DNA from: Pseudomonas sp. SORT22
Lineage (GTDB): Bacteria; Pseudomonadota; Gammaproteobacteria; Pseudomonadales; Pseudomonadaceae
Assembly: GCF_018417635.1 (NCBI RefSeq)
Contig: NZ_CP071007.1
Span: forward strand, 2,666,501 to 2,730,500
Reading direction: 5' to 3'
Length of the DNA: 64,000 nucleotides
How positions within the stretch are numbered: the first letter of the stretch is position 1; each line of letters starts with the position of its first letter. Below, one piece after another: positions 4,401-35,298 of this stretch. The position numbers were made by a program, and so were the translations under genes. The notes below the pieces were generated by a model, which had not been told where the DNA came from, did no database searches, and saw only the letters and a list, made by a program, of their open reading frames with translations.

Positions 4401-5058
4401 GTTCAGGCCTGCTGGCGAGGATGCCTCGCTGGAAGACTTCGAGAGCTTCTTCGGCCCCAAGGGGCGCTTGCAACAGTTTCAGGACCAGTACCTGAGCGTA
4501 TTCCTCAAGGACAACCTCGACGCCCTGTACTCCGATGCCCTGGGTGGCTACCTGGTGCGCAGCGATGTGCTGGAGCAACTGCAGCATGCCGAACGCATCC
4601 GTGACACCTTCTTCAACAACCGCGGCCACCTGGCGGTGCAATTGAGCATCGAACCCCTGGCCTTGAGCAGCAGTCGCCTGAGCAGCCTGCTGAGCATCGA
4701 TGGCCAACTGGTCCCGTACCGCCATGGCGCGCCGCAGCGCACCGGGCTGGTCTGGCCCAATGACCTGGGCAGTGCCAGTGCCAGCCAGCTGACGCTGGTG
4801 AACAGCAGCGGTAACACCGCCAGCCTCAGCTATCGTGGGCCCTGGTCGCTGTTTCGCCTGCTCAGCCGCGCCCAGCTCAACGGCCGCACCGACACCAGCG
4901 TCGATCTGACCTTTGCCGTCGCCGATGGCCTGATGCGCTACCGGGTCGAGGTACAGAAGGCCAACAACCCGGTGACCCAGCGCAGTTTCGCCGGATTTGC
5001 CTTGCCCAGGACCTTGCTCGAGGCGCGCCGCGGCCTGGCGGTCGATGATGAGTCATAG
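1450..5058 (+). CDS. tssM: T6SS membrane-complex protein TssM (IcmF family)
   Basis: A 1202-residue inner-membrane protein. Two hydrophobic helices lie at about residues 23-41 and 58-75, followed by a cytoplasmic NTPase-like domain with a Walker A motif GAQNAGKTS at 138-146, a third membrane helix at about 471-494, and a large periplasmic part. Length and layout match IcmF/TssM, which with TssL and TssJ forms the trans-envelope channel that docks the T6SS tail. It is the last T6SS gene here; the next gene belongs to the anaerobic island and has its own ANR-type promoter. The protein looks intact. Confidence 0.95.
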   Translation: MDRVWSHLKRWRLPMLRQFNRSLTLLVLLGVLLVLGAIWWLGPQLVWNDHRPLAPLPMRVAASVVVLVAPLLAWAWRVRRRYQAFQAERQQQAARQADPCLPHVQAQERALARSLDHLLNNMERRRSLYQLPWYLVLGAQNAGKTSLITRSNQSFALSQVTRAGASAQQDPDLAYPIDWWIGDEAVLFDPPGELLSQPEEPLPHQASAEGEDSVQQGLPVGTHQRLWLHLLDWLARTRSRRALNGVVLVIDLQSLLTQAPEQRKAQANLLRTRLYELTRQLGTRLPVYVTLSKVDLLEGFEECFARLSPSGREALLGFTFSLAAVDDFDAWQQELASRYDRFVELLGAQVFDSCAQAHSLSERQRLVALVRQLSGLRPALLGFFAEMLGSDRFTTPALVRGVYFSSVYQQGTLSNAFVDEAGKSYQLPSPAAEVKPAGGKVVYFAQQLFQRVIYPEAGLAGDNIKVARSKRRLLLAGFAVASLGCLLAVGLWQLYFSVNRGKAASVLAKSQEFSARDIDAKVDTTGRNLLAPLDQIRDAVSVYGDYRQAWPLLSDMGLYQGKKIGPTVDEAYLKLLSKRFLPAIASRALEAVFAAPTGSDEQLQALRVYRMIEDRGNRQAAIVEQWAARQWQRAYPGQGQVQADLMRHLDYALKYADADLAQHHEKIAQVQQALRQRPMAERVYLALKRQAQARLQPALDLRSEVGPAFDIIYQVPSASEGDSLLLAPLLTAKGYKAYFESGSRNLIELAMIDQWVLGERQRLDYSEHDREVLGQRVRALYHADYVDSWRRALSQVSIVDFRDLGHGVAVLEQVTGPGAPVRRLLETLRDNTVIFASLPVAEVEPLTGAQRATDGPPQAVAIRRAFSGLTELITAQADRPSYYDETLRAVSAVYDYAKAVHDSPDPGKAALKAVLQRFSLGAADPIANLQRIAAGLPEPLNQQARKLADQTAQVLMIAALGELEKRWDSEVYSFYHERLANRYPFRPAGEDASLEDFESFFGPKGRLQQFQDQYLSVFLKDNLDALYSDALGGYLVRSDVLEQLQHAERIRDTFFNNRGHLAVQLSIEPLALSSSRLSSLLSIDGQLVPYRHGAPQRTGLVWPNDLGSASASQLTLVNSSGNTASLSYRGPWSLFRLLSRAQLNGRTDTSVDLTFAVADGLMRYRVEVQKANNPVTQRSFAGFALPRTLLEARRGLAVDDES

Positions 5059-5078
5059 CCGTGCGCCCCGCGCCGCGC

Positions 5079-5092
5079 TTGATGCAAATCAA
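5079..5092 (+). promoter_or_regulatory. ANR/DNR (FNR-type) box of the hemN-like gene
   Basis: TTGATGCAAATCAA is a perfect match to the FNR/ANR consensus TTGAT-N4-ATCAA. A -10-like hexamer GACACT follows at 5115-5120, 22 nt after the box, so the box would be centred near -41.5 (class II activation). It lies 59 bp before the ATG at 5151 and argues against the GTG at 5061 as the start. Binding is inferred from sequence only. Confidence 0.85.
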
Positions 5093-5150
5093 GGCCTGTG
5101 CGCCGCTCAGGGCAGACACTGAGGCTCCGCAGCCCGCCTGGGAGCCCGCC

Positions 5151-6461
5151 ATGCCTGATTTACACCATCGCCACCCGCAGCCCGTCAGCGTGCACGGGCA
5201 ATGGCCGGGCGAGCCCGGCGGGCATGCCGATACCCGCAGGTTCCACACCGGCATCGGTTCGCTGGACGTGTTGCGCGCCTTGCGCGCGAGCCGCAAGCAG
5301 CACCGGCCATTGTCGCTAAGCGTGCAACTGGCGGCCGGGCTCGATGAGCTGGAGCAGGACGCCTACCTGCGCGGCCTGCAACGGGAGATCGCCCTGGTCG
5401 GCTGCCACCTGGGGGCCGACCAGAGCATCGAGCAGTTCCGGTTGAGCGGTGCCACTCCAGGCCTTGAGGTGTTGCAGCGGTTGATGGAGCAACTGCGCCA
5501 ACGCTTCAGTTTTTTGCCACACGAACTGGGTGACTACGCTGTTGAAGTCGATTTGCACCACACCCGGTGGGCGACCATGGGGCTGTTGCGCGACCTGGGT
5601 TTCAACCAGGTCAGTATCGGTGTGCCCGATTGTGGCCAGGGCGGTGTGCTGTCGGCTGCCGACTGGCAGAACCCGGCGCCGATCCATTCACTGATCGATG
5701 CCGCGCGCACCTTTGATTTTCGCTCAGTGAGTGTCGACCTCGGCTATGGCCATGCCTGGCAGACCCCGGACAGCTTTGCCCGCAAGCTTGCCACCCTGAT
5801 CGAGCTTGAGCCCGACCGCCTGCAGGTTTTCGACTACAGCCAGCCGCCGGCGCGCTACGCCCAATGTGCCCGGCAGGCACCCTGCAGCGAGCAGGACAAA
5901 GCGCTGATGCGGCGCCTGTGCTTTGCCCAGTTGCTGGCTGCAGGTTACCAACACATCGGCCTCGGCCAGTTCGTGCGCGCCGACGACGACCTGGCGATTG
6001 CCCAGGAGCGCGGGCGCCTGCGGCGCAATTGCCAGGGGTTTACCCGTCACGGCTATTGCGACCATGTCGGTCTGGGCCTGGGCGCGATCAGCCAGTTCGA
6101 CGCGCTCTATGCGCAGAACGCCCTGACCCTGACGCACTACCTTCAGCCGTTGCGCAACGATCAGTTGCCTACGTGCCGCGGCTGGCGCTGCGAGGCCGAT
6201 GAGCAACTGCGCCAGGGCGTCAGCGAGCGCCTGGCCTGTGACCTGGAGCTGGATATCGAGGCCATCGAGGCCCGCTACGGCGTGGATTTTCGCCAGTACT
6301 TCGCCAGTGCCTGGCGCCAGCTGGAGGCCATGCGCCGGACAGGGCTGGTGGAGGTCTCGGCGCGCCACATCAGCATATTGCCCGCCGGGCGGGTGAACGT
6401 GGATGCCATCTGCCAGCTGTTCGAACAGCAGCAATGGGTCGATCACGATGCCGGTCTTTGA
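5151..6461 (+). CDS. HemN-like protein lacking the radical-SAM cluster motif
   Basis: A 436-residue protein that can be aligned by eye over its length with oxygen-independent coproporphyrinogen III dehydrogenase HemN. Shared stretches include GFNQVSIGVPD, PDRLQVFDY, RADDDLAIAQERG and LGLGAIS. The CX3CX2C motif that binds the 4Fe-4S cluster is absent: between RPLSL and the REI helix the protein is about 14 residues shorter than E. coli HemN, and the GGGTPT motif reads SGATPG. It is therefore unlikely to do radical-SAM chemistry. The frame is open and there is a perfect ANR box upstream, so it looks expressed rather than decayed. The ATG at 5151 is chosen because GGAG precedes it; an in-frame GTG at 5061 lies upstream of the ANR box. 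The function is unknown; heme binding or trafficking is a guess. Confidence 0.75.
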   Translation: MPDLHHRHPQPVSVHGQWPGEPGGHADTRRFHTGIGSLDVLRALRASRKQHRPLSLSVQLAAGLDELEQDAYLRGLQREIALVGCHLGADQSIEQFRLSGATPGLEVLQRLMEQLRQRFSFLPHELGDYAVEVDLHHTRWATMGLLRDLGFNQVSIGVPDCGQGGVLSAADWQNPAPIHSLIDAARTFDFRSVSVDLGYGHAWQTPDSFARKLATLIELEPDRLQVFDYSQPPARYAQCARQAPCSEQDKALMRRLCFAQLLAAGYQHIGLGQFVRADDDLAIAQERGRLRRNCQGFTRHGYCDHVGLGLGAISQFDALYAQNALTLTHYLQPLRNDQLPTCRGWRCEADEQLRQGVSERLACDLELDIEAIEARYGVDFRQYFASAWRQLEAMRRTGLVEVSARHISILPAGRVNVDAICQLFEQQQWVDHDAGL

Positions 6462-6482
6462 GCCTGGCCAACTATTCTTTTG

Positions 6483-6523
6483 AGGGTCGAAAATACCCTG
6501 GATGACAAGGGTAGAAACAACCA
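6483..6523 (+). promoter_or_regulatory. Two NorR-type enhancer sites upstream of nnrS
   Basis: Two inverted repeats with the NorR core GT-N7-AC lie here: GGGTCGAAAATACCC (GT at 6486, AC at 6495) and GGTAGAAACAACC (GT at 6511, AC at 6520). Their centres are 25 bp apart and lie about 80-105 bp upstream of the -24/-12 element at 6587. That is a normal enhancer distance for a sigma-54 activator, and norR is encoded 2.5 kb downstream. Binding is inferred. Confidence 0.65.
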
Positions 6524-6586
6524 TGGCAGGGTCATTGTTACCCCGAATTCAGCCCATGGCCGAGCCCGCGCCCCGCAAACCGCGAG

Positions 6587-7872: not shown

Positions 7873-8310
7873 ATGCTGTATCCGTATTTGTTGGTGGTTC
7901 ATCTACTGGCAGCCATCGCCTTTATCGGCACGCTGTTTTTTGAACTGCTCATCTGGCAGGCGGCGCGCCGCCACGTGCCGGCTGCGGCGCTGGCCGGGGT
8001 AGACCAGGCGCTGTCGGTGCGTTCACGCAAGGTGCTGCATGGTGTGGTGCTGTTGTTGTACGGCGCGGGGCTTGGCCTGGCCTGGCATCACCGCGCGGCG
8101 CTGAGCCAGCCGCTGGCCAGCAGCTTTGCCAGCCTGCTGAGCCTGAAGATCGTCCTGGCCCTGAGCATCATTGGCCATTACCTGTTGCTGGCGTACTGGC
8201 TCAAGCGCGGACGCTTGAGCGAGGGGCGTGCGCGTTGGATTCGCTGCAGCATTCTTGGCCATATGTTGGTGATCGTGGTACTGGCCAAGGCGATGTTCTA
8301 TTGGCATTAG
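7873..8310 (+). CDS. Four-helix membrane protein downstream of nnrS, possible b-type heme protein
   Basis: A 145-residue integral membrane protein with four hydrophobic helices. Each helix carries one histidine at a comparable depth: H10, H56, H102 and H130. This pattern suggests a small cytochrome-b-like heme protein, similar in style to CopD/HemJ-type four-helix proteins, but I cannot assign a family with certainty. It starts 17 bp after nnrS behind GGAGGCGAAGG and should share its NO-responsive promoter. It ends in front of a REP hairpin region that separates it from the convergent hemerythrin gene. Heme binding is inference from the histidine positions. Confidence 0.75.
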   Translation: MLYPYLLVVHLLAAIAFIGTLFFELLIWQAARRHVPAAALAGVDQALSVRSRKVLHGVVLLLYGAGLGLAWHHRAALSQPLASSFASLLSLKIVLALSIIGHYLLLAYWLKRGRLSEGRARWIRCSILGHMLVIVVLAKAMFYWH

Positions 8311-8362
8311 CCTGCGCCGTACTCAGGCGGGCCCTTGCCTGGATTACAACTGCTGCGCGCTC

Positions 8363-8438
8363 GATCGCGGGTCAAGCCCGCTCCCACAGGTTTGGCGTAC
8401 ACAGACCCATTTGTAGGAGCGGGCTTGCCCCGCGATGA
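8363..8438. repeat. Inverted REP pair between convergent genes
   Basis: Two copies of a Pseudomonas REP element in opposite orientation: GATCGCGGGTCAAGCCCGCT at 8363-8382 continuing with CCCACAG, and TGTAGGAGCGGGCTTGCCCC at 8412-8431 continuing with GCGATG. They are separated by about 21 bp. The pair can fold into a long hairpin and sits exactly between two convergent genes, where it may act as a bidirectional terminator and mRNA stabiliser. The same element recurs at 30573-30623 and, degenerate, at 44886-44938. Confidence 0.85.
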
Positions 8439-8448
8439 GGCCAGTGCG

Positions 8449-8898
8449 TTAAGCCAGGGCTTTGACGAACAGCACATCGTTCTCCAGATGAATATGCTGC
8501 AGCAAATCCTCGCGAAATTCCGCCAGCCCACGGTACAGGGTACGCCATGTGTTGCAGGCACCTTCCGGCGCGCTGATGTCGTTGGTCAACAGGCTCAAAC
8601 GCTCCAGCGCCTCACCATGCTGGTCGTGCTCCATGCGCATCACCTGGATCGGCGCACCCGCCTGGCGACCCATGCCCCGTTGCAACATCGGGAACAGCAC
8701 CTGTTCCTCCTTGAGCATGTGCCCTTCAAGTTCCTGCTGCATGTCCTGCAGGTGGTCGGCCAGGCCGTTGGGGCACTGGGCGTGGCCGCCATGGACCTGC
8801 TCGACGCGTCGGGCCAGGCGGATCAGTTCCGGCAGTTGCTCACGGTGACGATCGTGGTAGCGGGTGAGGATATGGGCGATCAGTTCGGTCGGGTTCAT
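8449..8898 (-). CDS. Hemerythrin-like di-iron protein, YtfE/RIC-type without the N-terminal domain
   Basis: A 149-residue protein very similar to the C-terminal two thirds of YtfE (RIC), which repairs nitrosatively damaged Fe-S centres. Shared segments are RYHDRHREQLPELI, HMLKEEQVLFPM and HIHLENDVLF. All presumed di-iron ligands are present: H15, H36, H60, E64, H91, H135 and E139. The ScdA_N/DUF542 domain that normally precedes this part is absent. The start is set at 8898 (MNPTEL). An in-frame ATG at 8949 lies inside the sigma-54 promoter and would add an unrelated 17-residue leader. The gene is divergent from norR and has its own -24/-12 element and three NorR-type sites, so NO induction is likely. 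Confidence 0.85.
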   Translation of the reverse strand: MNPTELIAHILTRYHDRHREQLPELIRLARRVEQVHGGHAQCPNGLADHLQDMQQELEGHMLKEEQVLFPMLQRGMGRQAGAPIQVMRMEHDQHGEALERLSLLTNDISAPEGACNTWRTLYRGLAEFREDLLQHIHLENDVLFVKALA

Positions 8899-8936
8899 CA
8901 GGGGGCCTGCTCTGCTGGCAAAGTGTCCCAGGGTGA

Positions 8937-8953
8937 TTGCATCGCCCATGCCA
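8937..8953 (-). promoter_or_regulatory. Sigma-54 promoter of the hemerythrin gene
   Basis: On the minus strand TGGCATGGGCGATGCAA matches TGGCACG-N4-TTGCA with two mismatches and keeps the invariant GG and GC with a 10-base gap. Transcription would start near 8926, 28 bases before the ATG at 8898. This placement excludes the upstream ATG at 8949 as the translation start. Confidence 0.65.
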
Positions 8954-8993
8954 GCTTTACTTGCCCGAAATCAAGGTCTGGCGCCGGGCTTGT

Positions 8994-9050
8994 GGTGAAA
9001 TCTACCTGCCTGCCTGCGGGTAGCGATAACCATAGAGGGTAGTAACTACC
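8994..9050. promoter_or_regulatory. Three NorR-type sites in the norR / hemerythrin intergenic region
   Basis: Three GT-N7-AC repeats lie in a row: GGTGAAATCTACC (8994-9006), GGTAGCGATAACC (9019-9031) and GGTAGTAACTACC (9038-9050). The last is a perfect palindrome that touches the norR start codon. Three such sites next to a divergent norR gene is the arrangement known for E. coli norR-norVW. They lie about 75-120 bp upstream of the predicted hemerythrin transcription start. They may also autoregulate norR. Binding is inferred. Confidence 0.7.
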
Positions 9051-10571
9051 ATGCTGCGTGAAAGCCTGGCCGCCGACCTGATCGTCGAACTGCCCAATGC
9101 CGTGCGCTTGCAGCGCCTGGTACAAACCCTGCGCGAGTACTTCAACTGCGGCGCGGTCGGCCTGTTGCGCCTGGAGGGCGACAGCCTGCGCCCGCAGGCC
9201 AGCGTCGGGCTGGTCCACGAAGCCCTCGGCCGGCGCTTCGTGATCGCCCGGCATCCGCGCCTGGCAGCGATCATGGCTTCGCGCGAGCCGACCTGGTTCG
9301 AGCCCGACAGCCGCCTGCCGGACCCTTACGATGGCCTGCTCGACAGCGCGCTGCATGAGCCCTTGGCTGTGCACGACTGCATGGGCGTCAGCCTTTACGT
9401 AGAAGGCCAACTGTGGGGTGCGATCACTCTCGATGCGTTGCAGCCGGGGACCTTCGACAGCGCTGCCCGCGATGAACTCAAACGCTGCACCTTGCAGATC
9501 GAAGCGGCCCTGCGGGTCACCCGCATGGAGCAGGAGAACCGCAGCCTGCGCCTGTCACGCAGCGAACCCCAGGACCTGCGTGCGCCGCTGGAAGCGAGCG
9601 AGATTCTTGGCCATAGCCCGGTGCTGCAGCAGTTGCTCAACGAGATCGAACTGCTCGCCGACGCCGAACTGCCGGTGTTGCTGCTGGGCGAGACCGGGGT
9701 CGGCAAGGAGCTGTTCGCCCGCCGCTTGCATGGTTTATCGCGGCGCCGCCACAAGCCGCTGATCCAGGTCAACTGCGCGGCCTTGCCTGAGTCCCTGGCC
9801 GAGAGTGAGCTGTTCGGCCATGTCAAAGGTGCGTTTTCAGGCGCCAGCAGCGACCGCGCCGGGCGCTTCGATGCGGCCAACGGTGGCACGCTGTTTCTTG
9901 ATGAAGTCGGCGAACTGCCGCTGAGCGTGCAGGCCAAGCTGCTGCGCACGTTGCAGAACGGCGAGATCCAGCGCCTGGGCGCCGACAAGCCGCTGCACGT
10001 GGATGTGCGCATCATCGCCGCGACCAACCGGCACTTGCCCGACAGCATCCGCGACGGTCTGTTTCGCGCCGACCTCTACCATCGCCTGTCGGTGTATCCG
10101 CTGCCGATCCCGCCGCTGCGCGAGCGCGGCGACGATGTGTTGATGATTGCCGGGCAGTTCCTTGAGCTCAACCGCACCCGCCTGGGCCTGCGCGGCTTGC
10201 GCCTGTCGCCGGCGGCCGAGCGGGCGCTGCTGGCTTACCACTGGCCGGGCAATGTGCGCGAGCTTGAGCATGTAATCAGCCGCGCCGCGCTCAAGCAACT
10301 GAGCCGCGAGGGCAGCCGCAACCTGATCATTACCCTGGAGCCGCAGGTGCTCGACCTCGACAGTGCGCCGGCTGCCGCGCCAGTGGCAGAGCAGGGGGCA
10401 CCACCGGCGCTGGCGTTCAGTTCCCTGAGCGAAGCCGTCGACGCCTGCCAGCGCCAGGCCATTGCCCAGGCCCTGCGCCTGAGCGGCGACAACTGGGCCA
10501 GCGCCGCGCGGCTGCTGGCGCTCGACCCGAGCAACCTGCACAAACTGGCCAGGCGCTTGCGTCTCAAGTAA
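9051..10571 (+). CDS. norR: NorR/FhpR, NO-sensing sigma-54 activator
   Basis: A 506-residue enhancer-binding protein. The N-terminal GAF domain (about 15-165) keeps the residues expected for the non-heme iron NO sensor, in RLPDPYDGL, HDCMG and TLDALQP. The AAA+ domain has Walker A GETGVGKE at 213-220, the sigma-54 contact loop GAFSGA at 260-265 (consensus GAFTGA, Thr to Ser) and Walker B GGTLFLDEVGE. A Fis-type helix-turn-helix ends the protein. NO binding to the GAF iron relieves repression of the ATPase. Likely targets here are its two neighbours, the hemerythrin gene and nnrS. No clear Shine-Dalgarno is visible before the ATG because a NorR palindrome occupies that position. Confidence 0.93.
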   Translation: MLRESLAADLIVELPNAVRLQRLVQTLREYFNCGAVGLLRLEGDSLRPQASVGLVHEALGRRFVIARHPRLAAIMASREPTWFEPDSRLPDPYDGLLDSALHEPLAVHDCMGVSLYVEGQLWGAITLDALQPGTFDSAARDELKRCTLQIEAALRVTRMEQENRSLRLSRSEPQDLRAPLEASEILGHSPVLQQLLNEIELLADAELPVLLLGETGVGKELFARRLHGLSRRRHKPLIQVNCAALPESLAESELFGHVKGAFSGASSDRAGRFDAANGGTLFLDEVGELPLSVQAKLLRTLQNGEIQRLGADKPLHVDVRIIAATNRHLPDSIRDGLFRADLYHRLSVYPLPIPPLRERGDDVLMIAGQFLELNRTRLGLRGLRLSPAAERALLAYHWPGNVRELEHVISRAALKQLSREGSRNLIITLEPQVLDLDSAPAAAPVAEQGAPPALAFSSLSEAVDACQRQAIAQALRLSGDNWASAARLLALDPSNLHKLARRLRLK

Positions 10572-14309: not shown

Positions 14310-15200
14310 ATGAAGCTCAGCCTGGGACCCGTGTTGTACTACTGGGACAAGGAACAATTGGGGCGTTTCTACAGCGAAATGTCGGCTTTGCCCCTGGATG
14401 TGATTTACCTGGGGGAAACCGTCTGCTCGAAACGCCGGGCGATGAACCTCGACCACTGGCTGGGCCTGGGCCGCGAGCTACAGGCCTGCAGCCCGGCGCA
14501 GATCGTGCTGTCGGGCCTGACCCTGATCGAAGCTGCGTCCGAGCTCTCCAGCCTGCGCCGCCTGTGCGATAACGGCGAGTTGCTGGTGGAGGCCAACGAC
14601 ATGGGCGCGGTGCAGTACCTGGCCGAGCGCAAGCTGCCGTTCGTGGCCGGGCCGGCGCTGAACCTTTACAACGGCCATGCCCTGGCCAAGCTGCTCGAGT
14701 GCGGGATGATCCGCTGGGTGCCGCCGGTGGAGTGCTCGGCGGCACTGATTCGCGCGGTGCTCGACCAGGCCGTTGAACTGGGCCGTGAACTGCCCGAGGT
14801 CGAGGTCTTTGCCTATGGCCACCTGCCGCTGGCCTATTCGGCGCGCTGCTTTACCGCGCGGGCGGAAAACCGGCCCAAGGATGACTGCCAGTTCTGTTGC
14901 ATCAACTACCCCGATGGCCTGGCCCTGAGCAGCCAGGAAGGCCAGGCGCTGTTCACTCTCAACGGCATCCAGACCATGTCCGCCGAAGTCACCAACCTGC
15001 TGGCCGACTATGCCGGGTTGCAAGCCTGCGGCGCCGACCTGCTGCGCCTGAGCCCGCGCGCCCAGGGCATGTCCGAGGTGATCGAGGCCTTTGCCCGGGT
15101 GCGCCAGGGCGAGGCGCCGCCGCTCTGTGTCGACGGCTGCAACGGCTACTGGCATGGCCAGGCGGGCATGTTGCGGGTCGAGGAGGTTGGCCTGTGCTGA
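14310..15200 (+). CDS. ubiV: O2-independent ubiquinone hydroxylation protein UbiV
   Basis: A 296-residue U32-family partner of UbiU. Four cluster-ligand cysteines are visible at C39 (ETVCSKR), C180, C193 and C197 (the last two in DDCQFCC), the positions I recall for E. coli UbiV. The start at 14310 gives MKLSLGPVLYYW and lies 10 bp after the ubiU stop; a longer frame would read back into ubiU. Its stop overlaps the ubiT start by 7 bp. Confidence 0.95.
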   Translation: MKLSLGPVLYYWDKEQLGRFYSEMSALPLDVIYLGETVCSKRRAMNLDHWLGLGRELQACSPAQIVLSGLTLIEAASELSSLRRLCDNGELLVEANDMGAVQYLAERKLPFVAGPALNLYNGHALAKLLECGMIRWVPPVECSAALIRAVLDQAVELGRELPEVEVFAYGHLPLAYSARCFTARAENRPKDDCQFCCINYPDGLALSSQEGQALFTLNGIQTMSAEVTNLLADYAGLQACGADLLRLSPRAQGMSEVIEAFARVRQGEAPPLCVDGCNGYWHGQAGMLRVEEVGLC

Positions 15201-15688
15201 ACCGTACGCAATGGCTGCTCAAAGGCGCCGACAAGGTCCTGCCCTTGGTGCGCAAGGTGCCCTTTGTGATCCAGCGCGTGGCCTTGCAGCAGGCGCTCAA
15301 CCGCTGCCTGGCCGAGCCCTTGCGCGACGGCGAGTTCGACCTGTTGCGCGGGCGCTGGCTGTGCCTGCGCATCCCTGACCTGGACCTGACCTGGTACCTG
15401 ACCCGCAACCGCGAGGGCCTGCAGATCGCCGAGCGGGCCAGGGCCGATGTGACCATTCGTGGCAACTGGCGCGAGTTCCTGTTGCTGGCCAGCCGGCAGG
15501 AAGACCCGGACACCCTGTTCTTTCGCCGCCGCCTGGTGATCGAGGGCGACACCGAGCTGGGCCTGACCCTGAAAAACCTGATCGACAGCCTCGACCCCGA
15601 GGTGCTGCCGGTGTGGTTGTGGCGCAACCTGGAACGCGCCGGCAAGGGCCTGGCGGCAAGCTCTGGGCAGCGCCGGCGCGCGGGCTAG
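15194..15688 (+). CDS. ubiT: Ubiquinone biosynthesis accessory factor UbiT (SCP2 domain)
   Basis: A 164-residue SCP2-type lipid-binding protein that presents the hydrophobic quinone precursors to UbiU-UbiV. Typical segments are LRIPDLDLTWYLT, ADVTIRGNWREFLLLA and DPDTLFFRRRLVIEGDTELGL. The start is a GTG at 15194 that overlaps the ubiV stop by 7 bp and follows GAGGAGG at 15179-15185. The gene completes the ubiUVT operon. Its TAG stop shares a CTAG palindrome with the stop of the convergent dnr gene. Confidence 0.92.
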   Translation: MLNRTQWLLKGADKVLPLVRKVPFVIQRVALQQALNRCLAEPLRDGEFDLLRGRWLCLRIPDLDLTWYLTRNREGLQIAERARADVTIRGNWREFLLLASRQEDPDTLFFRRRLVIEGDTELGLTLKNLIDSLDPEVLPVWLWRNLERAGKGLAASSGQRRRAG

Positions 15689-16362
15689 CCCGTGTAGCCG
15701 GCCAGATCATCGGTGTTGAGGATCTGGATGCTGCGCCGCTCCATGGCGATCAGGCCGCGTTCCACCAGGCGGTGCAGGGTGCGCGAAAAGGTCTCCGGCT
15801 GGATCCCCAGCTTGGAGGCCACCAGGCGCTTGGACACTTGCAACTCGAGCCGGCCGCTGTCCGGGTCGCACTCCTGCAGCAAAAAATTGATCACCCGCCG
15901 GCTGGCGCTGGCCGAGGTCAGGGTGTCGATGTCCTTGAGGCGCTGATGCAGGTGGATGCTCATGCTCGCCAGAATCGCCAGGCACACCTGCGGCTGGTCT
16001 TCCAGGGCATTGCGGTAGTGGCCGCCGTCGATGCTGATCAGCAGGCAATCCTTGAGCGCTGTGGCCGTCACCGGGTAGCTGCGCGCCTGGCTGAACAGCA
16101 GCGCCTCGGCAAAGGTCTGGCCCGGCTGGATGATCTCCACCAGGTGCTCCTGGCCCTCGGCGCTGAGCCGGTACAGCTTGATCTGGCCGCTGACCAGCAA
16201 GAAGAAGCGCTTGGCCGGGTCGCCCTGGTGCATGAGCGTGTCATGACAGCCCAGGCGCCGGAGCATGGCCAGGCTGCAGACGGCTTCGAAGACTTTCTCC
16301 GGCAGTTGGCTGAACAGGTGATGGCGACGTAAAAGCAGAACGCTAGAAGGGTGGGTCAGCAT
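15685..16362 (-). CDS. dnr: DNR, CRP/FNR-family NO-responsive regulator
   Basis: A 225-residue CRP/FNR-family activator. It has an N-terminal cyclic-nucleotide-binding-like fold (about 20-130) and a C-terminal winged helix with QPETFSRTLHRL, whose ExxSR residues read FNR/ANR-type boxes. It has no N-terminal cysteine cluster, so it is DNR-like (heme/NO sensing) rather than ANR-like (Fe-S/O2 sensing). In P. aeruginosa DNR controls denitrification genes under ANR and NarL. GGAGGT precedes the ATG. It lies 89 bp downstream of narL with a NarL-like site in the gap. The targets in this window are the TTGAT-N4-RTCAA boxes, shared with ANR. Confidence 0.92.
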   Translation of the reverse strand: MLTHPSSVLLLRRHHLFSQLPEKVFEAVCSLAMLRRLGCHDTLMHQGDPAKRFFLLVSGQIKLYRLSAEGQEHLVEIIQPGQTFAEALLFSQARSYPVTATALKDCLLISIDGGHYRNALEDQPQVCLAILASMSIHLHQRLKDIDTLTSASASRRVINFLLQECDPDSGRLELQVSKRLVASKLGIQPETFSRTLHRLVERGLIAMERRSIQILNTDDLAGYTG

Positions 16363-29560: not shown

Positions 29561-30553
29561 ATGAGCACTGTGATGCAGGACGGCTTCGGGCGGCAGATCG
29601 ATTACCTGCGCATGTCAGTGACCGATCGTTGTGATTTTCGCTGTGTGTACTGCATGGCCAAACACATGACCTTCTTGCCGCGCCAGCAGGTGCTGACCCT
29701 CGAAGAGTTGCGGCGCCTGGCCACGCTGTTCGTCGGCCAGGGCGTGGGCAAGATCCGCCTGACCGGCGGCGAGCCGCTGATTCGCCCGGGTATCGTCGAG
29801 CTGTGCCGTGACATTGCCGCCTTGCCCGGCCTGCGTGAACTGGTGATGACCAGCAATGGCTCGCAGCTGCAGCGCCTGGCCCGGCCGCTGGTAGAGGCCG
29901 GGGTCAAGCGCATCAACATCAGCCTCGACAGCCTCGATGGCCAGCGCTTTCGGGCAATTACCCGCACGGGCGATCTGGATCAGGTGCTGCGCGGCATCGA
30001 GGCGGCGCGCGAGGCCGGTTTCGAAGGCATCAAGCTCAATTGCGTGGTGATGAAGGGGCGCAACTTCGATGAGGTGTTGGCGCTGCTGCAGTACGCCATC
30101 GACCAGCGCATCGACATCACCTTCATCGAGGAAATGCCCTTGGGCGAGGTCGGCCGTGCGCGCGCTGAGTCGTTTTGCGCCAGCGACGAGATACGGGCGC
30201 TGATTGCCAGCCGCCACGCTTTGCTCGATAGCGCCGAGCACAGCGGCGGGCCGGCGCGCTATGTGCGCCTGGCCCGGCACCCGGCAACGCGCATCGGTTT
30301 TATCTCGCCCAACAGCCACAACTTCTGCGCCAGCTGCAACCGGGTGCGGATGACCGTGGAAGGGCGCTTGCTGCTGTGCCTGGGGCAAGAGGATTCGCTG
30401 GATTTGCGCGGCTTGTTGCGGCGCTATCCGCTGGATGACCAACCGATCATCAGCGCTCTGCAACAGGCGTTGCGCCGCAAGCCGTTGCGCCATGATTTCA
30501 ACCCGCAGGGGGAGGTGCAGATCTTGCGGTTCATGAACATGAGCGGCGGGTGA
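29561..30553 (+). CDS. moaA: GTP 3',8-cyclase MoaA
   Basis: A 330-residue radical-SAM enzyme for the first step of molybdopterin synthesis. The N-terminal cluster ligands are C24, C28 and C31 (CDFRCVYC) and the C-terminal cluster ligands are C256, C259 and C273 (CX2CX13C). The TGGEPL motif is also present. The usual C-terminal GG tail is there as SGG. It is the last gene of the nar operon, 10 bp after the isomerase gene, and precedes a REP hairpin. It is probably the anaerobic MoaA copy. Confidence 0.95.
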
Positions 30554-30572
30554 GGGTGGCCGTCAGGGCCTT

Positions 30573-30623
30573 ATCGCGGGGCAAGCCCGCTCCCACCCTG
30601 TAGGAGCGGGCTTGCCCCGCGAT
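30573..30623. repeat. Inverted REP hairpin after the nar operon
   Basis: ATCGCGGGGCAAGCCCGCTC (30573-30592) and its inverse copy GAGCGGGCTTGCCCCGCGAT (30604-30623) are perfect complements around an 11-bp loop. The element matches those at 8363 and 44886. It lies between moaA and the nrdD promoter and may end or stabilise the long nar transcript. Confidence 0.88.
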
Positions 30624-30625
30624 TC

Positions 30626-30639
30626 TTGATATCGATCAA
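30626..30639 (+). promoter_or_regulatory. ANR/DNR box of the nrdD operon
   Basis: TTGATATCGATCAA is a perfect palindromic box. TAGCCT at 30662-30667 lies 22 nt downstream as the -10 element, putting the box at about -41.5. The nrdD ATG is at 30726. Confidence 0.85.
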
Positions 30640-30725
30640 TTTCTTTCACCCGCTTTACCCGTAGCCTGCACTGCATATTGTGTTTCCAAATCAATAAACG
30701 TCTATATGTAGTGTCAGGAGGGCAA

Positions 30726-32738
30726 ATGCACAGCACGCTGATCAGGGTAGGGCACAACCGGTTGCACAAGCGCGATGGCAGCCTGGTGGCCTTTGACGCC
30801 GACAAGATCCGCCAGGCGTTGATCGCCGCCGGCAAGGCCACTGGCGAATATGCCGAAGCCGAGGCAGACGGTTTGCTTGAAGCAGTCCTTGCCCACCTTG
30901 AGGGCTACTCCAAGCTGCACGTCGAGCAGATCCAGGACCGGGTCGAACGGGTGCTGATGGACGCCGGGCATTTCCTTTCGCTACGCGCCTATATCGTCTA
31001 CCGCGAACAGCACGGACGCCTGCGCCGTGACCGCAAGACCCTGGTCGAAGTCGCCACCTCGATGAACGAATACCTCAACCGCGAAGACTGGCGGGTGCAG
31101 GCCAACGCCAACCAGGGTTACTCCCTTGGCGGCCTGGTGCTCAACGTTTCCGGCAAGGTCACTGCCAACTACTGGCTCGACGAGGTCTACAGCGAAGCCA
31201 TCGGCCGCGCCCATCGCGAGGCCGACCTGCATATCCACGACCTCGACATGCTCGCCGGCTACTGCGCCGGCTGGTCGCTGCGCAGCCTGCTGCACGAGGG
31301 CCTCAATGGCGTGCCCGGGCGGGTCGAGGCCGGCCCGCCCCAACACCTGAGCAGCGCCCTGGGGCAGATGGTCAACTTTCTCGGCACCCTGCAGAACGAG
31401 TGGGCCGGGGCCCAGGCCTTCAGCTCCTTCGACACTTACCTGGCGCCCTACGTGCGCAAGGACCGGCTGAGCTATGAAGAGGTGCGCCAGGCCCTCCAGG
31501 AGTTCATCTACAACCTCAATGTGCCGTCGCGCTGGGGCACGCAAACGCCGTTTACCAACCTGACCTTCGACTGGGTCTGCCCGCAGGACCTGCGCGAGCA
31601 GATCCCGGTGATCGGCGGTGAAGAAATGCCCTTTGCCTACGGCGAGCTGCAAGCGGAGATGGACCTGCTCAACCGTGCCTACATCGAAGTGATGCAGGCC
31701 GGCGACGCCAAGGGCCGGGTATTCACTTTCCCGATCCCGACCTACAACATCACCCACGACTTTCCCTGGGACAGCGACAACGCCGAGCGCCTGTTCGCCA
31801 TGACCGCGCGCTATGGCCTGCCGTACTTCCAGAACTTCCTCAACTCGGACATGCAGCCCAACCAGGTGCGCTCGATGTGCTGTCGCCTGCAACTGGATGT
31901 GCGCGAACTGCTCAAACGTGGCGGCGGCCTGTTCGGCTCGGCCGAGCAGACCGGCTCGCTGGGGGTGGTGACCATCAACTGCGCGCGCCTGGGCTACCTG
32001 TACAAGGGCGACATCAGCGGCCTGTTGCAGCGTCTGGATGCGCTGATGGAGCTGGCCATGGAGAGCCTGGAGGTCAAGCGTAAGGTGATCCAGCACCACA
32101 TGGATGCGGGCTTGTACCCCTATACCAAGCGCTACCTGGGCACCCTGCGCAATCACTTCTCGACCATCGGCGTCAACGGCCTGCATGAGATGCTGCGCAA
32201 CTTCAGCGACGAGCAGATGGGCCTGCACACCGCCCAGGGCCGGCGCTTCGCCCTGAACCTGCTGGACCATGTGCGCGCCACCCTGGTGCGCTTTCAGGAA
32301 GAAACCGGCCACCTGTACAACCTCGAAGCCACCCCGGCCGAGGGCACCACCTACCGCTTCGCCAAGGAAGACCTCAAGCGCTTCCCCGACATCCTCCAGG
32401 CCGGCTGCAGCCAGGCGCCGTACTACACCAACTCCTCGCAACTGCCGGTGGGCTATACCGACGATCCGTTCGAGGCCCTGGAACTGCAGGACGAGCTGCA
32501 ATGCAAGTACACCGGCGGCACCGTGCTGCACCTGTACATGGCTGAGCGGATCTCCTCGGCCCAGGCCTGCAAGCAACTGGTGCGCAGGGCCCTGGAGCGC
32601 TTCCGGCTGCCGTACCTGACCATCACCCCGACGTTTTCCATCTGCCCGGTGCATGGCTACCTGGATGGCGAACATGAGTTCTGCCCCAAATGCGACGAAG
32701 CGCTGCTGCTGGCCCAGCAGCAGGGCAGCGTGCATTGA
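30726..32738 (+). CDS. nrdD: Anaerobic ribonucleotide reductase NrdD, catalytic part without glycyl-radical tail
   Basis: A 670-residue class III ribonucleotide reductase. An ATP-cone occupies about residues 10-100. Active-site cysteines are visible at C180 (GYCAGWS) and C385/C386 (SMCCRLQLD). A zinc-type motif lies near the C-terminus (C640, H643, C653, C656). The protein stops 14 residues later, before the RVxGY glycyl-radical segment that every working class III enzyme needs. That segment is encoded separately by the next small ORF at 32772-32939, in the same frame after a single TGA. The ATG at 30726 follows AGGAGGG; the in-frame GTG at 30678 lies just after the predicted transcription start but has no ribosome site. 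ANR control is indicated upstream. Confidence 0.93.
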   Translation: MHSTLIRVGHNRLHKRDGSLVAFDADKIRQALIAAGKATGEYAEAEADGLLEAVLAHLEGYSKLHVEQIQDRVERVLMDAGHFLSLRAYIVYREQHGRLRRDRKTLVEVATSMNEYLNREDWRVQANANQGYSLGGLVLNVSGKVTANYWLDEVYSEAIGRAHREADLHIHDLDMLAGYCAGWSLRSLLHEGLNGVPGRVEAGPPQHLSSALGQMVNFLGTLQNEWAGAQAFSSFDTYLAPYVRKDRLSYEEVRQALQEFIYNLNVPSRWGTQTPFTNLTFDWVCPQDLREQIPVIGGEEMPFAYGELQAEMDLLNRAYIEVMQAGDAKGRVFTFPIPTYNITHDFPWDSDNAERLFAMTARYGLPYFQNFLNSDMQPNQVRSMCCRLQLDVRELLKRGGGLFGSAEQTGSLGVVTINCARLGYLYKGDISGLLQRLDALMELAMESLEVKRKVIQHHMDAGLYPYTKRYLGTLRNHFSTIGVNGLHEMLRNFSDEQMGLHTAQGRRFALNLLDHVRATLVRFQEETGHLYNLEATPAEGTTYRFAKEDLKRFPDILQAGCSQAPYYTNSSQLPVGYTDDPFEALELQDELQCKYTGGTVLHLYMAERISSAQACKQLVRRALERFRLPYLTITPTFSICPVHGYLDGEHEFCPKCDEALLLAQQQGSVH

Positions 32739-32771
32739 CCCGTTTTACCCTCAACAGCAAGGAGCTTCATC

Positions 32772-32939
32772 ATGACTGCACAGCAAACCCTGCCGACGGC
32801 GCAACGCCAACGGTGCGAAGTCTGGACCCGGGTCATGGGTTATCACCGCCCGGTGTCGGCGTTCAACCCCGGCAAACAGTCCGAGCACCACGAGCGGCTG
32901 CACTTCAATGAGGGCGCGGCAACGGCCGGGCATCCATGA
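32772..32939 (+). CDS. Separate glycyl-radical domain of NrdD, 55 aa
   Basis: A 55-residue ORF that contains the NrdD C-terminal signature: C15, then WTRVMGYHRPVSAFNPGKQ at residues 18-36, with G23 as the expected glycyl radical. It starts with ATG behind AAGGAG (32759-32764) at ideal spacing, 33 bp after the nrdD stop and in the same frame. Its stop overlaps the nrdG start by 4 bp (ATGA), so it is translationally coupled to the activase. The simplest reading is a split class III reductase in which this peptide docks on NrdD and carries the radical. Readthrough of the TGA at 32736 would give a fused protein and is the alternative. It is too short for most gene finders. Confidence 0.85.
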   Translation: MTAQQTLPTAQRQRCEVWTRVMGYHRPVSAFNPGKQSEHHERLHFNEGAATAGHP

Positions 32940-33631
32940 GCCGAGCGCTGCGGGTCGGGGGCATGGTGCCCCTGACCACCCTCGATTACCCCGGCAAGCT
33001 CGCCTGTGTGCTGTTCTGCCAGGGCTGCGCCTGGCGCTGCCGTTACTGCCACAACCCGCAACTGATCCCGCCCCGGGGCCGTGATGAACTGCCCTGGGCG
33101 CAGGTGCTGGCGTTTTTGCAGCGTCGCCGCGGCCTGCTCGATGCCGTGGTGTTCAGCGGCGGTGAGGCAACCCTGCAGGACAGTCTGCCAGAGGCCATGG
33201 CCCAGGTGCGGGCCATGGGCTTTGCCATCGGCCTGCACAGTGCCGGGATCAAGCCTGAGGCGTTTGCCCGGGCATTGCCTGGGGCCGACTGGGTCGGCTT
33301 TGACGTCAAGGCGCTGGCCGAAGACTGCCAGTTGGTTACCGGCGTGCGCGGCAGTGGCCAGGCCAACTGGCGCAGCCTGGATTCCCTGCTGGCCAGCGGC
33401 GTCGACTACGAATGCCGCACCACGGTGCACTGGCACCTGATCGATCCACCGCGATTCCTCACCCTGGCCCGGCGCTTGAATGCGCTTGGGGTCCAACGCT
33501 TCGTCGTGCAGCGGGTACGCACGGCACGCATGCTCGACCCGCAGCTGCCCGGTGCTTCGGCACACAGATTGCTACCCGAGCTGTGGGACACCCTCCACAC
33601 GCTGTTTCCCGCGTTTGAAGTACGCGACTAG
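32936..33631 (+). CDS. nrdG: Anaerobic ribonucleotide reductase activase NrdG
   Basis: A 231-residue radical-SAM protein with the cluster motif CX3CX2C at C31, C35 and C38 (CAWRCRYC) and a FSGGEATLQ glycine motif. It generates the glycyl radical on NrdD; here the target glycine should be in the 55-residue neighbour it overlaps by 4 bp. The gene is followed after 12 bp by a chemoreceptor gene that may share its transcript. Confidence 0.95.
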   Translation: MSRALRVGGMVPLTTLDYPGKLACVLFCQGCAWRCRYCHNPQLIPPRGRDELPWAQVLAFLQRRRGLLDAVVFSGGEATLQDSLPEAMAQVRAMGFAIGLHSAGIKPEAFARALPGADWVGFDVKALAEDCQLVTGVRGSGQANWRSLDSLLASGVDYECRTTVHWHLIDPPRFLTLARRLNALGVQRFVVQRVRTARMLDPQLPGASAHRLLPELWDTLHTLFPAFEVRD

Positions 33632-33643
33632 TAAGGCTTTGAA

Positions 33644-35263
33644 ATGACCAGATTGACCACAGCACAACGTATCCTCATCGGTTTTGCCATCGCGCCCCTG
33701 GCGCTTCTGGGCCTGGCCTTTTATGCATTGCATGACCTGGCCACGCTCAAAGAGCAGGCGGTGGTGATCGTCAAACAGGACTGGCCGAAGATCGAACCGA
33801 TCATGGTCATCGCCACCGGGGTGCGCGACAACGCACGCAACACCCGCGACCTGTTGCTCGACAAGGACAACCTGCAGGTGCAGCAGGCCATCGACACCAC
33901 CAAGCAGCGCATCAGCCAGGCCCTGGCAACGCTTGAGCCGCTGTTCTACCTGCCCGAGGGCAAGGCCGCCTACGCTGCGCTGAAAGCCAGCCGCGAAACC
34001 TATGTCGCGGCGTTTACCCAGGTACAGACACTGATCCGCCAGGGTGACGCGCAGGCGGCAATGACCCAGCTCAAGCAAAACGTGGTACCCGCCGAGCACG
34101 AGGTATACCAGCACCTGGAAAGCCTGATGGCCTTGCAGGGGCAGATCTTCGTCGAGCGCGAACAGGCCGCCCAGGCCCTGTACAACGACGCCCGGCTGAA
34201 CATGCTCGGCCTGGTCGTGCTGTGCCTGCTGGCGGTGATCGCCGCTGCGCTGCTGGTGACCCGCAGCGTCACCCGGCCGCTGGGCGGCGAGCCGGATACC
34301 GCCGCGCGGGTGCTCAGCCGGATCGCCGAGGGCGACCTGACCATCGCCGTGCCGACCTATGGCAGTGCCGACGGCAGCGTGATGCTCAACATGCAGCAGA
34401 TGCAGCAGAGCCTGAACAGCATGGTCAAGCACATCGCAGCTTCGGTGGAGCGGGTCGCCAGTTCTTCCGAGGAACTCAGCGCGGTCAGCAGCCAGACCAG
34501 CAGCAGCCTGCAGCTGCAGGGCCTGGAAATCGAACAGGCGGCAGCGGCGGTCAACGAGATGACCGCCGCGGTGGACGAAGTGGCGCGCAACGCGGTGAGC
34601 ACCAGCGAAGCCTCGAAGGTCTCCGAACAAACCGCCCAGCGTGGCCGTGAACAGGTACGCGAGACGGTCGCCTCGATCAGCACCCTGGCCGACGGCGTCA
34701 GCGATACCTCCGCGCGCATCCAGCAACTGGCCGGGCGTGTGCAGGACATCAGCACGGTGCTGGATGTGATCCGCAGCATCGCCGAACAGACCAACCTGTT
34801 GGCGCTCAACGCCGCCATCGAGGCGGCCCGCGCCGGTGATGCCGGGCGCGGCTTTGCCGTGGTCGCCGACGAGGTGCGGGCCCTGGCCCATCGTACCCAG
34901 GTGTCGACCCAGGAGATCGAGCAGATGATCGGCAACATCCGCCAGGACACCAGCGAGGCGGTGACCGCCATGCTCAGCAGCAGCGAGTTGGTGCACACCA
35001 CCCTGGACGTGGCCCAGCGTGCCGGCGAAGCGTTGGAGGCGATCACCCGGTCGATTTCGCAGATCAACGAGCGCAACCTGATGATCGCCAGCGCCACCGA
35101 AGAACAGGCCCTGGTGGCCCGTGAGGTGGACCGCAACCTGGTGGGCATTCGCAACCTCTCCGAACAGGTGCTGCTGGGGGCGCAACACACCGACAGCGCC
35201 GGCCAGGACCTGGCGCAGATGGCCGGCAGCCTGAGCCAGACCGTGGCGCGCTTCAAGGTTTGA
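33644..35263 (+). CDS. Methyl-accepting chemotaxis protein
   Basis: A 539-residue chemoreceptor. Membrane helices lie at about 10-32 and 187-207, flanking a periplasmic four-helix-bundle-type sensor of about 150 residues. A HAMP domain and a long signalling coiled coil follow, with the conserved hairpin EQTNLLALNAAIEAARAG. No C-terminal pentapeptide for CheR tethering is present (the end is ARFKV). The ligand is unknown. Its position 12 bp after nrdG, with no promoter in between, suggests expression with the anaerobic reductase, hence a possible role in anaerobic, nitrate or energy taxis; this is inference. Confidence 0.93.
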   Translation: MTRLTTAQRILIGFAIAPLALLGLAFYALHDLATLKEQAVVIVKQDWPKIEPIMVIATGVRDNARNTRDLLLDKDNLQVQQAIDTTKQRISQALATLEPLFYLPEGKAAYAALKASRETYVAAFTQVQTLIRQGDAQAAMTQLKQNVVPAEHEVYQHLESLMALQGQIFVEREQAAQALYNDARLNMLGLVVLCLLAVIAAALLVTRSVTRPLGGEPDTAARVLSRIAEGDLTIAVPTYGSADGSVMLNMQQMQQSLNSMVKHIAASVERVASSSEELSAVSSQTSSSLQLQGLEIEQAAAAVNEMTAAVDEVARNAVSTSEASKVSEQTAQRGREQVRETVASISTLADGVSDTSARIQQLAGRVQDISTVLDVIRSIAEQTNLLALNAAIEAARAGDAGRGFAVVADEVRALAHRTQVSTQEIEQMIGNIRQDTSEAVTAMLSSSELVHTTLDVAQRAGEALEAITRSISQINERNLMIASATEEQALVAREVDRNLVGIRNLSEQVLLGAQHTDSAGQDLAQMAGSLSQTVARFKV

Positions 35264-35284: not shown

Positions 35285-35298
35285 TTGATCTGTATCAA
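35285..35298 (+). promoter_or_regulatory. ANR/DNR box before the DUF3079 gene
   Basis: TTGATCTGTATCAA is a perfect box, with TAGCGT at 35321-35326 as the -10 element 22 nt downstream. The box sits inside a longer palindrome (35281-35302, 9-bp arms with a 4-bp loop) that could also terminate the upstream chemoreceptor transcript. Confidence 0.8.

Follow-up and report, generated by a model that had tools for sequence, protein, structure and literature searches.

Which chain carries the radical glycine of the anaerobic ribonucleotide reductase (RNR) of Pseudomonas sp. SORT22, given that its class III large chain, NrdD, ends before the glycyl-radical segment? The question is raised by a stretch of 64,000 nt, here called the window (assembly GCF_018417635.1, contig NZ_CP071007.1, positions 2,666,501-2,730,500; coordinates given without a locus name are window positions), in which nrdD, a small open reading frame (ORF) of 55 aa and nrdG, coding for the radical SAM activase, follow one another. 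Our analysis leads to the conclusion that this is very probably a class III RNR of two separately translated chains, with the radical on the small one. At the level of sequence, this is carried by the anatomy of the locus, its conservation, the independence of frame and linkage, purifying selection and the existence of free-standing copies. The same comparisons mark it as an old two-polypeptide class III RNR, general rather than a quirk of this strain.

Organization of the nrdD locus

The NrdD chain combines an ATP-cone (PF03477) with the NRDD barrel, scores above the cut-off of the NCBIfam model NF006126 and lacks the glycyl-radical segment. The Pfam family NRDD (PF13597, 562 positions) is divided between two ORFs, NrdD covering positions 2-528 (E 9.8e-175) and the small ORF positions 530-562 (E 1.1e-8). 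Furthermore, the small ORF matches the C-terminal ends of five NrdD models of NCBIfam (E 6e-8 to 5.7e-4). An initial annotation had placed the missing radical tail on this 55-aa ORF with its own AAGGAG, which is confirmed here. All of its coordinates hold on the sequence (NrdD, ending just after the zinc-type motif C640/H643/C653/C656; stop, gap, AAGGAG, small ORF, Gly23 and ATGA), as does the common frame of the two NrdD parts, one TGA and 33 bp apart (Table 1). The small ORF and nrdG overlap by ATGA (32936-32939), and NrdG carries the motif CxxxCxxC as CAWRCRYC.

Table 1. Features of the nrdD locus in the window.
Feature	Position	Strand	Details
nrdD body, class III RNR large chain, 670 aa	30726..32738	+	ATG 30726, TGA 32736-32738
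Finger-loop motif MCCR, M384-R387, double-cysteine type with methionine	31875..31886	+	sequence; invariant in alignment A4
Zinc-knuckle residues C640, H643, C653, C656, retained on NrdD	32643..32693	+	sequence
Gap between nrdD stop and small-ORF ATG, 33 bp, same frame	32739..32771	+	AAGGAG 32759-32764, 7 nt upstream of ATG
Separate glycyl-radical subunit, 55 aa	32772..32939	+	radical Gly23 in RVMGYHRP, codon 32838-32840
nrdG, radical SAM activase, 231 aa	32936..33631	+	NCBIfam TIGR02495 NrdG2, 208 bits (cut-off 131); PF04055
Presumed FNR/Anr/Dnr-type palindrome TTGATATCGATCAA, upstream of nrdD	30626..30639	+	pattern TTGATNNNNATCAA

The NRDD barrel, the finger-loop cysteine and the activase NrdG are those of a class III RNR. 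Since the radical glycine stands on a separate ORF (32772-32939) and not in the same chain, this assignment applies to the three genes together and does not extend to NrdD by itself. The double-cysteine finger loop with methionine has been linked to components for either formate or thioredoxin use (PMC9669993; here and below, papers are cited for individual passages). The genome has one NRDD locus, whose small chain is its only radical segment. No match to the glycyl-radical domain PF01228 occurs in this genome, the small ORF matching PF13597 only, and the class I/II large-chain family is matched once, by a frame of 971 aa. Judged by these family matches, the anaerobic RNR of this genome would be the NRDD locus alone.

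Distribution of the split

The initial annotation had proposed a search of the peptide and of NrdD C-termini across Pseudomonas, and this revealed that the split is not strain-specific. NRDD occurs in 32 of the 149 genus genomes that were searched, and every one of these 32 is split: in 30 the parts give two separate matches, in the remaining two (the window's genome and G015) one match across a TGA. In a sample of the class, 38 of 369 genomes matched, with 28 cases of separate NrdD and radical ORFs, seven single chains and three partial matches; in a sample of the phylum it was 57 of 398, with 15 separate, 41 single-chain and one weak partial (both by row count). The phylum sample includes two small genomes with an in-frame TAA (G726 and G756, judged from the match rows).

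A protein search with the small ORF yielded 1826 clusters at E<=0.01. It takes only proteins of 0.55-1.75 times the query length; therefore, a fused NrdD could not appear in it. The 120 clusters listed have lengths of 48-94 aa, and several among them, from Pseudomonas, Stutzerimonas and Halomonas, are named 'anaerobic ribonucleoside-triphosphate reductase' by NCBI. The same three-gene order exists on pHG1 of Cupriavidus necator H16 (676 aa, 66 aa and NrdG), where the small gene is annotated nrdD in the record. Thus, the databases already recognise the domain. The small segment is present also in C. metallidurans CH34, on a plasmid record without a gene table at that place.

We further compared 170 cellular loci, 80 of them fetched using the small peptide. 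There were 133 split loci (127 after removal of identical copies), seven single-chain ones and 30 without a motif match, the latter consisting of 27 enterobacterial-type single chains missed by the motif, two split loci of another NrdD family (L245, L248) and one unlinked locus (L250). Three genomes (G005, G069, G082) had been suspected to be fused, one open-frame length being printed for both matches; their loci (L101, L094, L104) have a TGA between the ORFs. Another candidate for fusion, L155, is split in the re-anchored locus count. A separate observation concerns G282 (C2:195825-198649), where NrdD appears as two matches about 900 bp apart within one 1021-aa frame. This suggests that an element such as an intein is inserted in frame.

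Independence of the small ORF from nrdD

In the 127 distinct split loci the two ORFs are out of frame in 95 cases and in frame in 32, and nrdD ends with TGA in 100, TAA in 19 and TAG in 8 of them. NrdD retains the zinc-type motif in every one. The small ORF is 45-100 aa long, overlaps nrdD in 16 loci, starts with ATG in 127/127 and is preceded by a Shine-Dalgarno-like match of 6 nt in 93, 5 nt in 15 and 4 nt in 19 loci; because the start was picked by the best ribosome-site match, the start and overlap counts are partly given by construction, the frame counts not. In 55 of the 124 loci with an nrdG match, the nrdG start lies 4 bp inside the small ORF (extrapolated from the alignment). The core of the small chain is invariant at E, T, R, V, M, G, Y, R, P, N, G, K, E, R and F in all 127 loci, for some of these residues fixed by the search pattern itself.

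Within the genus, 30 of the 32 loci were examined base by base. The gap modulo 3 is 0, 1 and 2 in 5, 12 and 13 of these, hence 25 are out of frame. All eight genus junctions printed have GCAAGGAGCTTCAyC in front of the ATG in spite of varying gap lengths, and this conserved ribosome-binding block is evidence independent of how the start was chosen. In the closest relative (L096, on the same contig as L140, P. donghuensis HYS), NrdD is 99.0% and the small chain 94.5% identical to that of the window; its gap has 31 bp rather than 33, which puts the small ORF in another frame. All of the nearest relatives, L096, L141 and L097, are out of frame, and the in-frame arrangement in the window looks incidental. 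Linkage is dispensable, too: in L250 (genome G855), NrdD is found at 4497-6542, nrdG at 14944-15639 and the small ORF at 15644-15898, all on the minus strand, so that the small gene and nrdG are about 9 kb away from nrdD. Finally, the ratio of nonsynonymous to synonymous polymorphism (pN/pS) of the small-ORF core is 0.06 over 30 genus loci, which marks the core as being under purifying selection. Together, the kept ribosome-binding block, the frame shift in L096, the unlinked L250 and this low ratio identify the small ORF as a gene of its own. The stand-alone radical-carrying subunit seen in the initial annotation is thereby supported.

That same annotation had left gene fission and regulated readthrough side by side. 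Fission is supported. That regulated or leaky readthrough at the TGA (32736-32738) would make a fused NrdD, the separate ORF being secondary, is very improbable. The common frame with a single TGA between the ORFs of the window fits it, as do the 32 of 127 split loci and 5 of 30 genus loci that are in frame. However, a readthrough gene should keep its frame across the stop. Here the majority of loci and all of the nearest relatives are out of frame, the stops are of all three kinds, the ribosome-binding block is conserved and the small gene of L250 is unlinked. With 95 of 127 loci out of frame and L250 unlinked, readthrough is not the general mechanism, and the comparison of frames between species already rules it out in that role. 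Frameshifting is rejected on the frame and linkage data; selenocysteine at the TGA is set aside on the same data, the stop being TAA or TAG in 27 of 127 loci. For a sequencing error or pseudogene, the chance of which is negligible, nothing was found in favour, and the same split in 32/32 NRDD-bearing genus genomes and 28/38 of the class sample, together with a pN/pS of 0.06, refutes it for the clade.

History of the cut

In two single-chain forms (L112, L113) the glycyl loop begins within a few residues after the fourth zinc ligand. This places the cut precisely in the stretch that links zinc knuckle and loop, and both ends appear to have grown short variable tails afterwards. A quick tree of 109 NrdD bodies, from which the radical part was excluded, has four state changes, compared with a mean of 25 after shuffling; its starred branches force two. 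One set of 83 rows holds 80 of the 81 split rows, and three single-chain rows lie inside it: L113, and L202 with L204. We read these three as likely re-fusions. The linker of L202 and L204 keeps RQPCEVWT (signature RRQPCEVWT), as in the separate subunit. According to this scenario, the cut would have occurred once in the ancestor of a large, mainly proteobacterial NrdD clade and been rejoined in a few lineages.

Yet another NrdD family is split in G906 (L245) and G838 (L248), where an in-frame stop is followed by an ORF starting MGKCNMVKP with RRITGYL. Therefore, taken over all families, the cut happened more than once. Kistimonas G955 has a single-chain and a split NrdD within a few kb (L332:2531-4681 and 8044-10167, both on the minus strand), each with an nrdG-like neighbour as judged by eye.

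Several points weigh against the two-chain reading. The 127 split loci are a biased sample because 80 loci were fetched with the small peptide; the less biased counts are those of the genus, class and phylum samples. The tree was built quickly and carries long-branch warnings, which apply to other rows, and the single-chain forms inside the split clade (L113, L202, L204) mean that the separation is dispensable. An AlphaFold2 model of the window chain read through the TGA has a mean predicted local distance difference test score (pLDDT) of 69, falling below 50 over residues 668-737; with no confidence in the radical segment, we make no claim on docking from structure.

Free-standing radical ORFs in viral contigs and prophage-like regions

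When IMG/VR was scanned with the 55-aa query, 127 stretches matched, of which 80 were kept and fetched (L002-L081). None of the 80 has an NrdD or NrdG match in its fetched flanks (up to 3 kb, many shorter on one side). When 50 of the 80 records, which may be fragments, were searched whole, the radical stretch was the only NRDD match in all 50. A second scan with an alignment of the viral forms gave 210 stretches, overlapping those of the first (loci L252-L326). In four records tested, the radical ORF is flanked by phage genes, namely those for terminase and portal (L002), portal and neck (L045), connector proteins (L033) and tape measure (L017); in a fifth, L052, a helicase gene adjoins it. 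The best PHROG match of these ORFs is phrog_4132, listed as function unknown, and the present findings would give the small viral ORFs of this family a testable function.

All 56 distinct viral cores that were scored retain the radical glycine and the residues around it; this number leaves out cores that did not fit the search pattern. One viral group has an N-terminal extension in which, over 28 aligned rows, C6, C21 and C31 are invariant and C34 occurs in at least 90%. This extension may bind a metal. A structure model of the four-cysteine form reached a pLDDT of 74 and had no PDB match with E<=0.001. Among named phages, the 55-aa query had no match at E<=1e-3; the viral forms gave only weak matches at E<=1, the best one in ANMV-1 virus. 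Its 144-aa protein AJP62049.1 (L251:2228-2662, plus strand), annotated as anaerobic RNR, matches only the C-terminal end of an NrdD-like family.

Extra copies reside also in bacterial genomes. G415 has a second radical ORF (L249:7303-7491, minus strand) beside genes for a RecT-like protein, a RecE-like exonuclease and an RNR large chain, in a prophage-like region; 49 of 50 residues (residues 6-55) are identical to the host's own subunit. The Oxalobacter metagenome-assembled genome G983 has three radical-domain ORFs for one NrdD, that is the normal set plus two extra ones (L330:7717-7890, minus strand; L331:8699-8863, plus strand), with the binning of such genomes as a caveat. One of the extra ORFs adjoins baseplate and tail genes; the other has no phage family at the two neighbours tested, except for a weak unknown one.

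Proposed mechanism and possible exchange of the small chain

The three ORFs, probably read from one FNR/Anr-controlled transcript, would yield a large chain with ATP-cone, barrel and zinc knuckle but without the radical glycine, a 55-aa chain bringing the glycyl-radical loop, and the activase. NrdG is expected to abstract a hydrogen atom from Gly23, acting on the small chain either before or after it has docked. By analogy with single-chain structures, the small chain would dock in trans in the NrdD barrel and set its glycyl radical beside the finger-loop cysteines of MCCR, from where the radical may pass between the chains. As a likely benefit, a radical chain of about 6 kDa that O2 has cleaved could be replaced without rebuilding NrdD; the copies in viral contigs would provide the same component.

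That an O2-damaged chain is exchanged, as the initial annotation had suggested, is a reasoned hypothesis with a precedent in GrcA for pyruvate formate-lyase (PMC12338860), and a neutral fixed subunit is almost as likely. In the latter case the small chain of a two-chain enzyme would bind NrdD once and tightly, and the split would be an inherited accident with no role in repair. We give this explanation nearly even chances. Indeed, many class III RNRs are single chains (41 of 57 in the phylum sample), single-chain forms recur within the split clade, with the linker of L202/L204 keeping RRQPCEVWT, and the small gene usually adjoins nrdD, as expected of a 1:1 subunit. Against it stand the extra free-standing copies in G415, the two in G983 and those in 80/80 fetched viral loci, since a part that is never exchanged is of little use without its own NrdD. 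These copies favour a trans-acting, exchangeable subunit by making it more plausible.

In its widest form, exchange would make the glycyl-radical domain a mobile cofactor protein: NrdD would use any small chain present, O2-cleaved chains would be replaced, and phages of anaerobically respiring bacteria would carry their own copies, some with a four-cysteine knuckle, to keep or take over the synthesis of deoxynucleoside triphosphates. We hold this tentatively, at somewhat less than even chances. It is rather unlikely that the viral ORFs are inhibitors or decoys occupying NrdD or NrdG, or neutral passengers, instead of spare parts. In favour of this, several have extra N-terminal cysteines, and a dead-end partner would look alike. 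However, the radical glycine with its surroundings is kept in all 56 cores scored, and the copy in G415 is almost identical to that of its host.

Comparison with known systems

Single-chain class III enzymes of NrdD and NrdG, such as those of E. coli, T4, Thermotoga maritima and Prevotella copri, have the same ATP-cone, barrel, finger-loop cysteine, zinc knuckle, glycyl loop and radical SAM activase, and Foldseek matches the model from the window best to the class III RNRs 9d3x and 8p2c. In contrast to these, the glycyl loop is here on a separate chain; in NrdD of P. copri, the C-terminal domain 676-739 holds the zinc site and the radical Gly711 in one chain (PMC11226230).

GrcA (YfiD) of E. 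coli and Y06I of phage T4 are autonomous glycyl radical cofactors for pyruvate formate-lyase (PMC12338860). The small chain resembles them as a small free-standing radical-glycine domain that is predicted to act in trans on a large enzyme and is also phage-encoded. However, GrcA backs up a complete enzyme and belongs to PF01228, whereas the small chain is an NRDD segment and the only radical segment of its genome, with one NRDD locus and no spare copy beside an enzyme with its own radical domain; extra copies are those of G415 and G983. The class II RNR NrdJa/NrdJb of P. aeruginosa is likewise split over two consecutive ORFs (PMC4009431), but is B12-dependent and has no glycyl radical. In phages, nrdD is reported to be the commonest split RNR gene, with six cases due to introns or homing endonucleases (PMC3653736). 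Those are interrupted genes; no such element lies between the two ORFs here, whose separation is conserved across bacteria.

In C. necator H16, NrdDG is reported to be essential for complete denitrification, and passages of the same paper name Rmet_5137 and Rmet_5139 as NrdDG without mention of the locus tag between them (PMC2864759). NrdD of P. aeruginosa (PA1920, 76 kDa) was detected only in the absence of oxygen (PMC12284477). A split class III RNR in bacteria was not described in the literature searched, to which subscription papers did not belong, so that a description in print may exist. If our reading is true, the anaerobic RNR of Pseudomonas and many Proteobacteria has so far been pictured with one chain missing, and constructs or mutants limited to nrdD and nrdG would be incomplete or polar. 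Nature would then also offer a glycyl-radical enzyme in two pieces, whose activation, damage by O2, repair and radical transfer between chains could each be tested separately.

Upstream region and further observations

No Rfam match was found in 30500-33700, where an RNA element at the junction was sought. The promoter scan found none, and a single terminator-like site sits upstream of nrdD. The cysteine directly before E-V-W of the radical segment (32814-32816) is present in 127/127 split subunits, with threonine in the single-chain L112, L113 and L135; it is possibly an extra ligand or redox residue. The palindrome at 30626-30639 is one which we take to be of the FNR/Anr/Dnr type. Its pattern TTGATNNNNATCAA has three exact matches in the window, compared with 0.02 expected from shuffles; the two others are at 5079-5092 and 35285-35298. 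Judged on their translations, the genes upstream of nrdD presumably represent a nar cluster, ppiC-like and moaA-like genes being among them.

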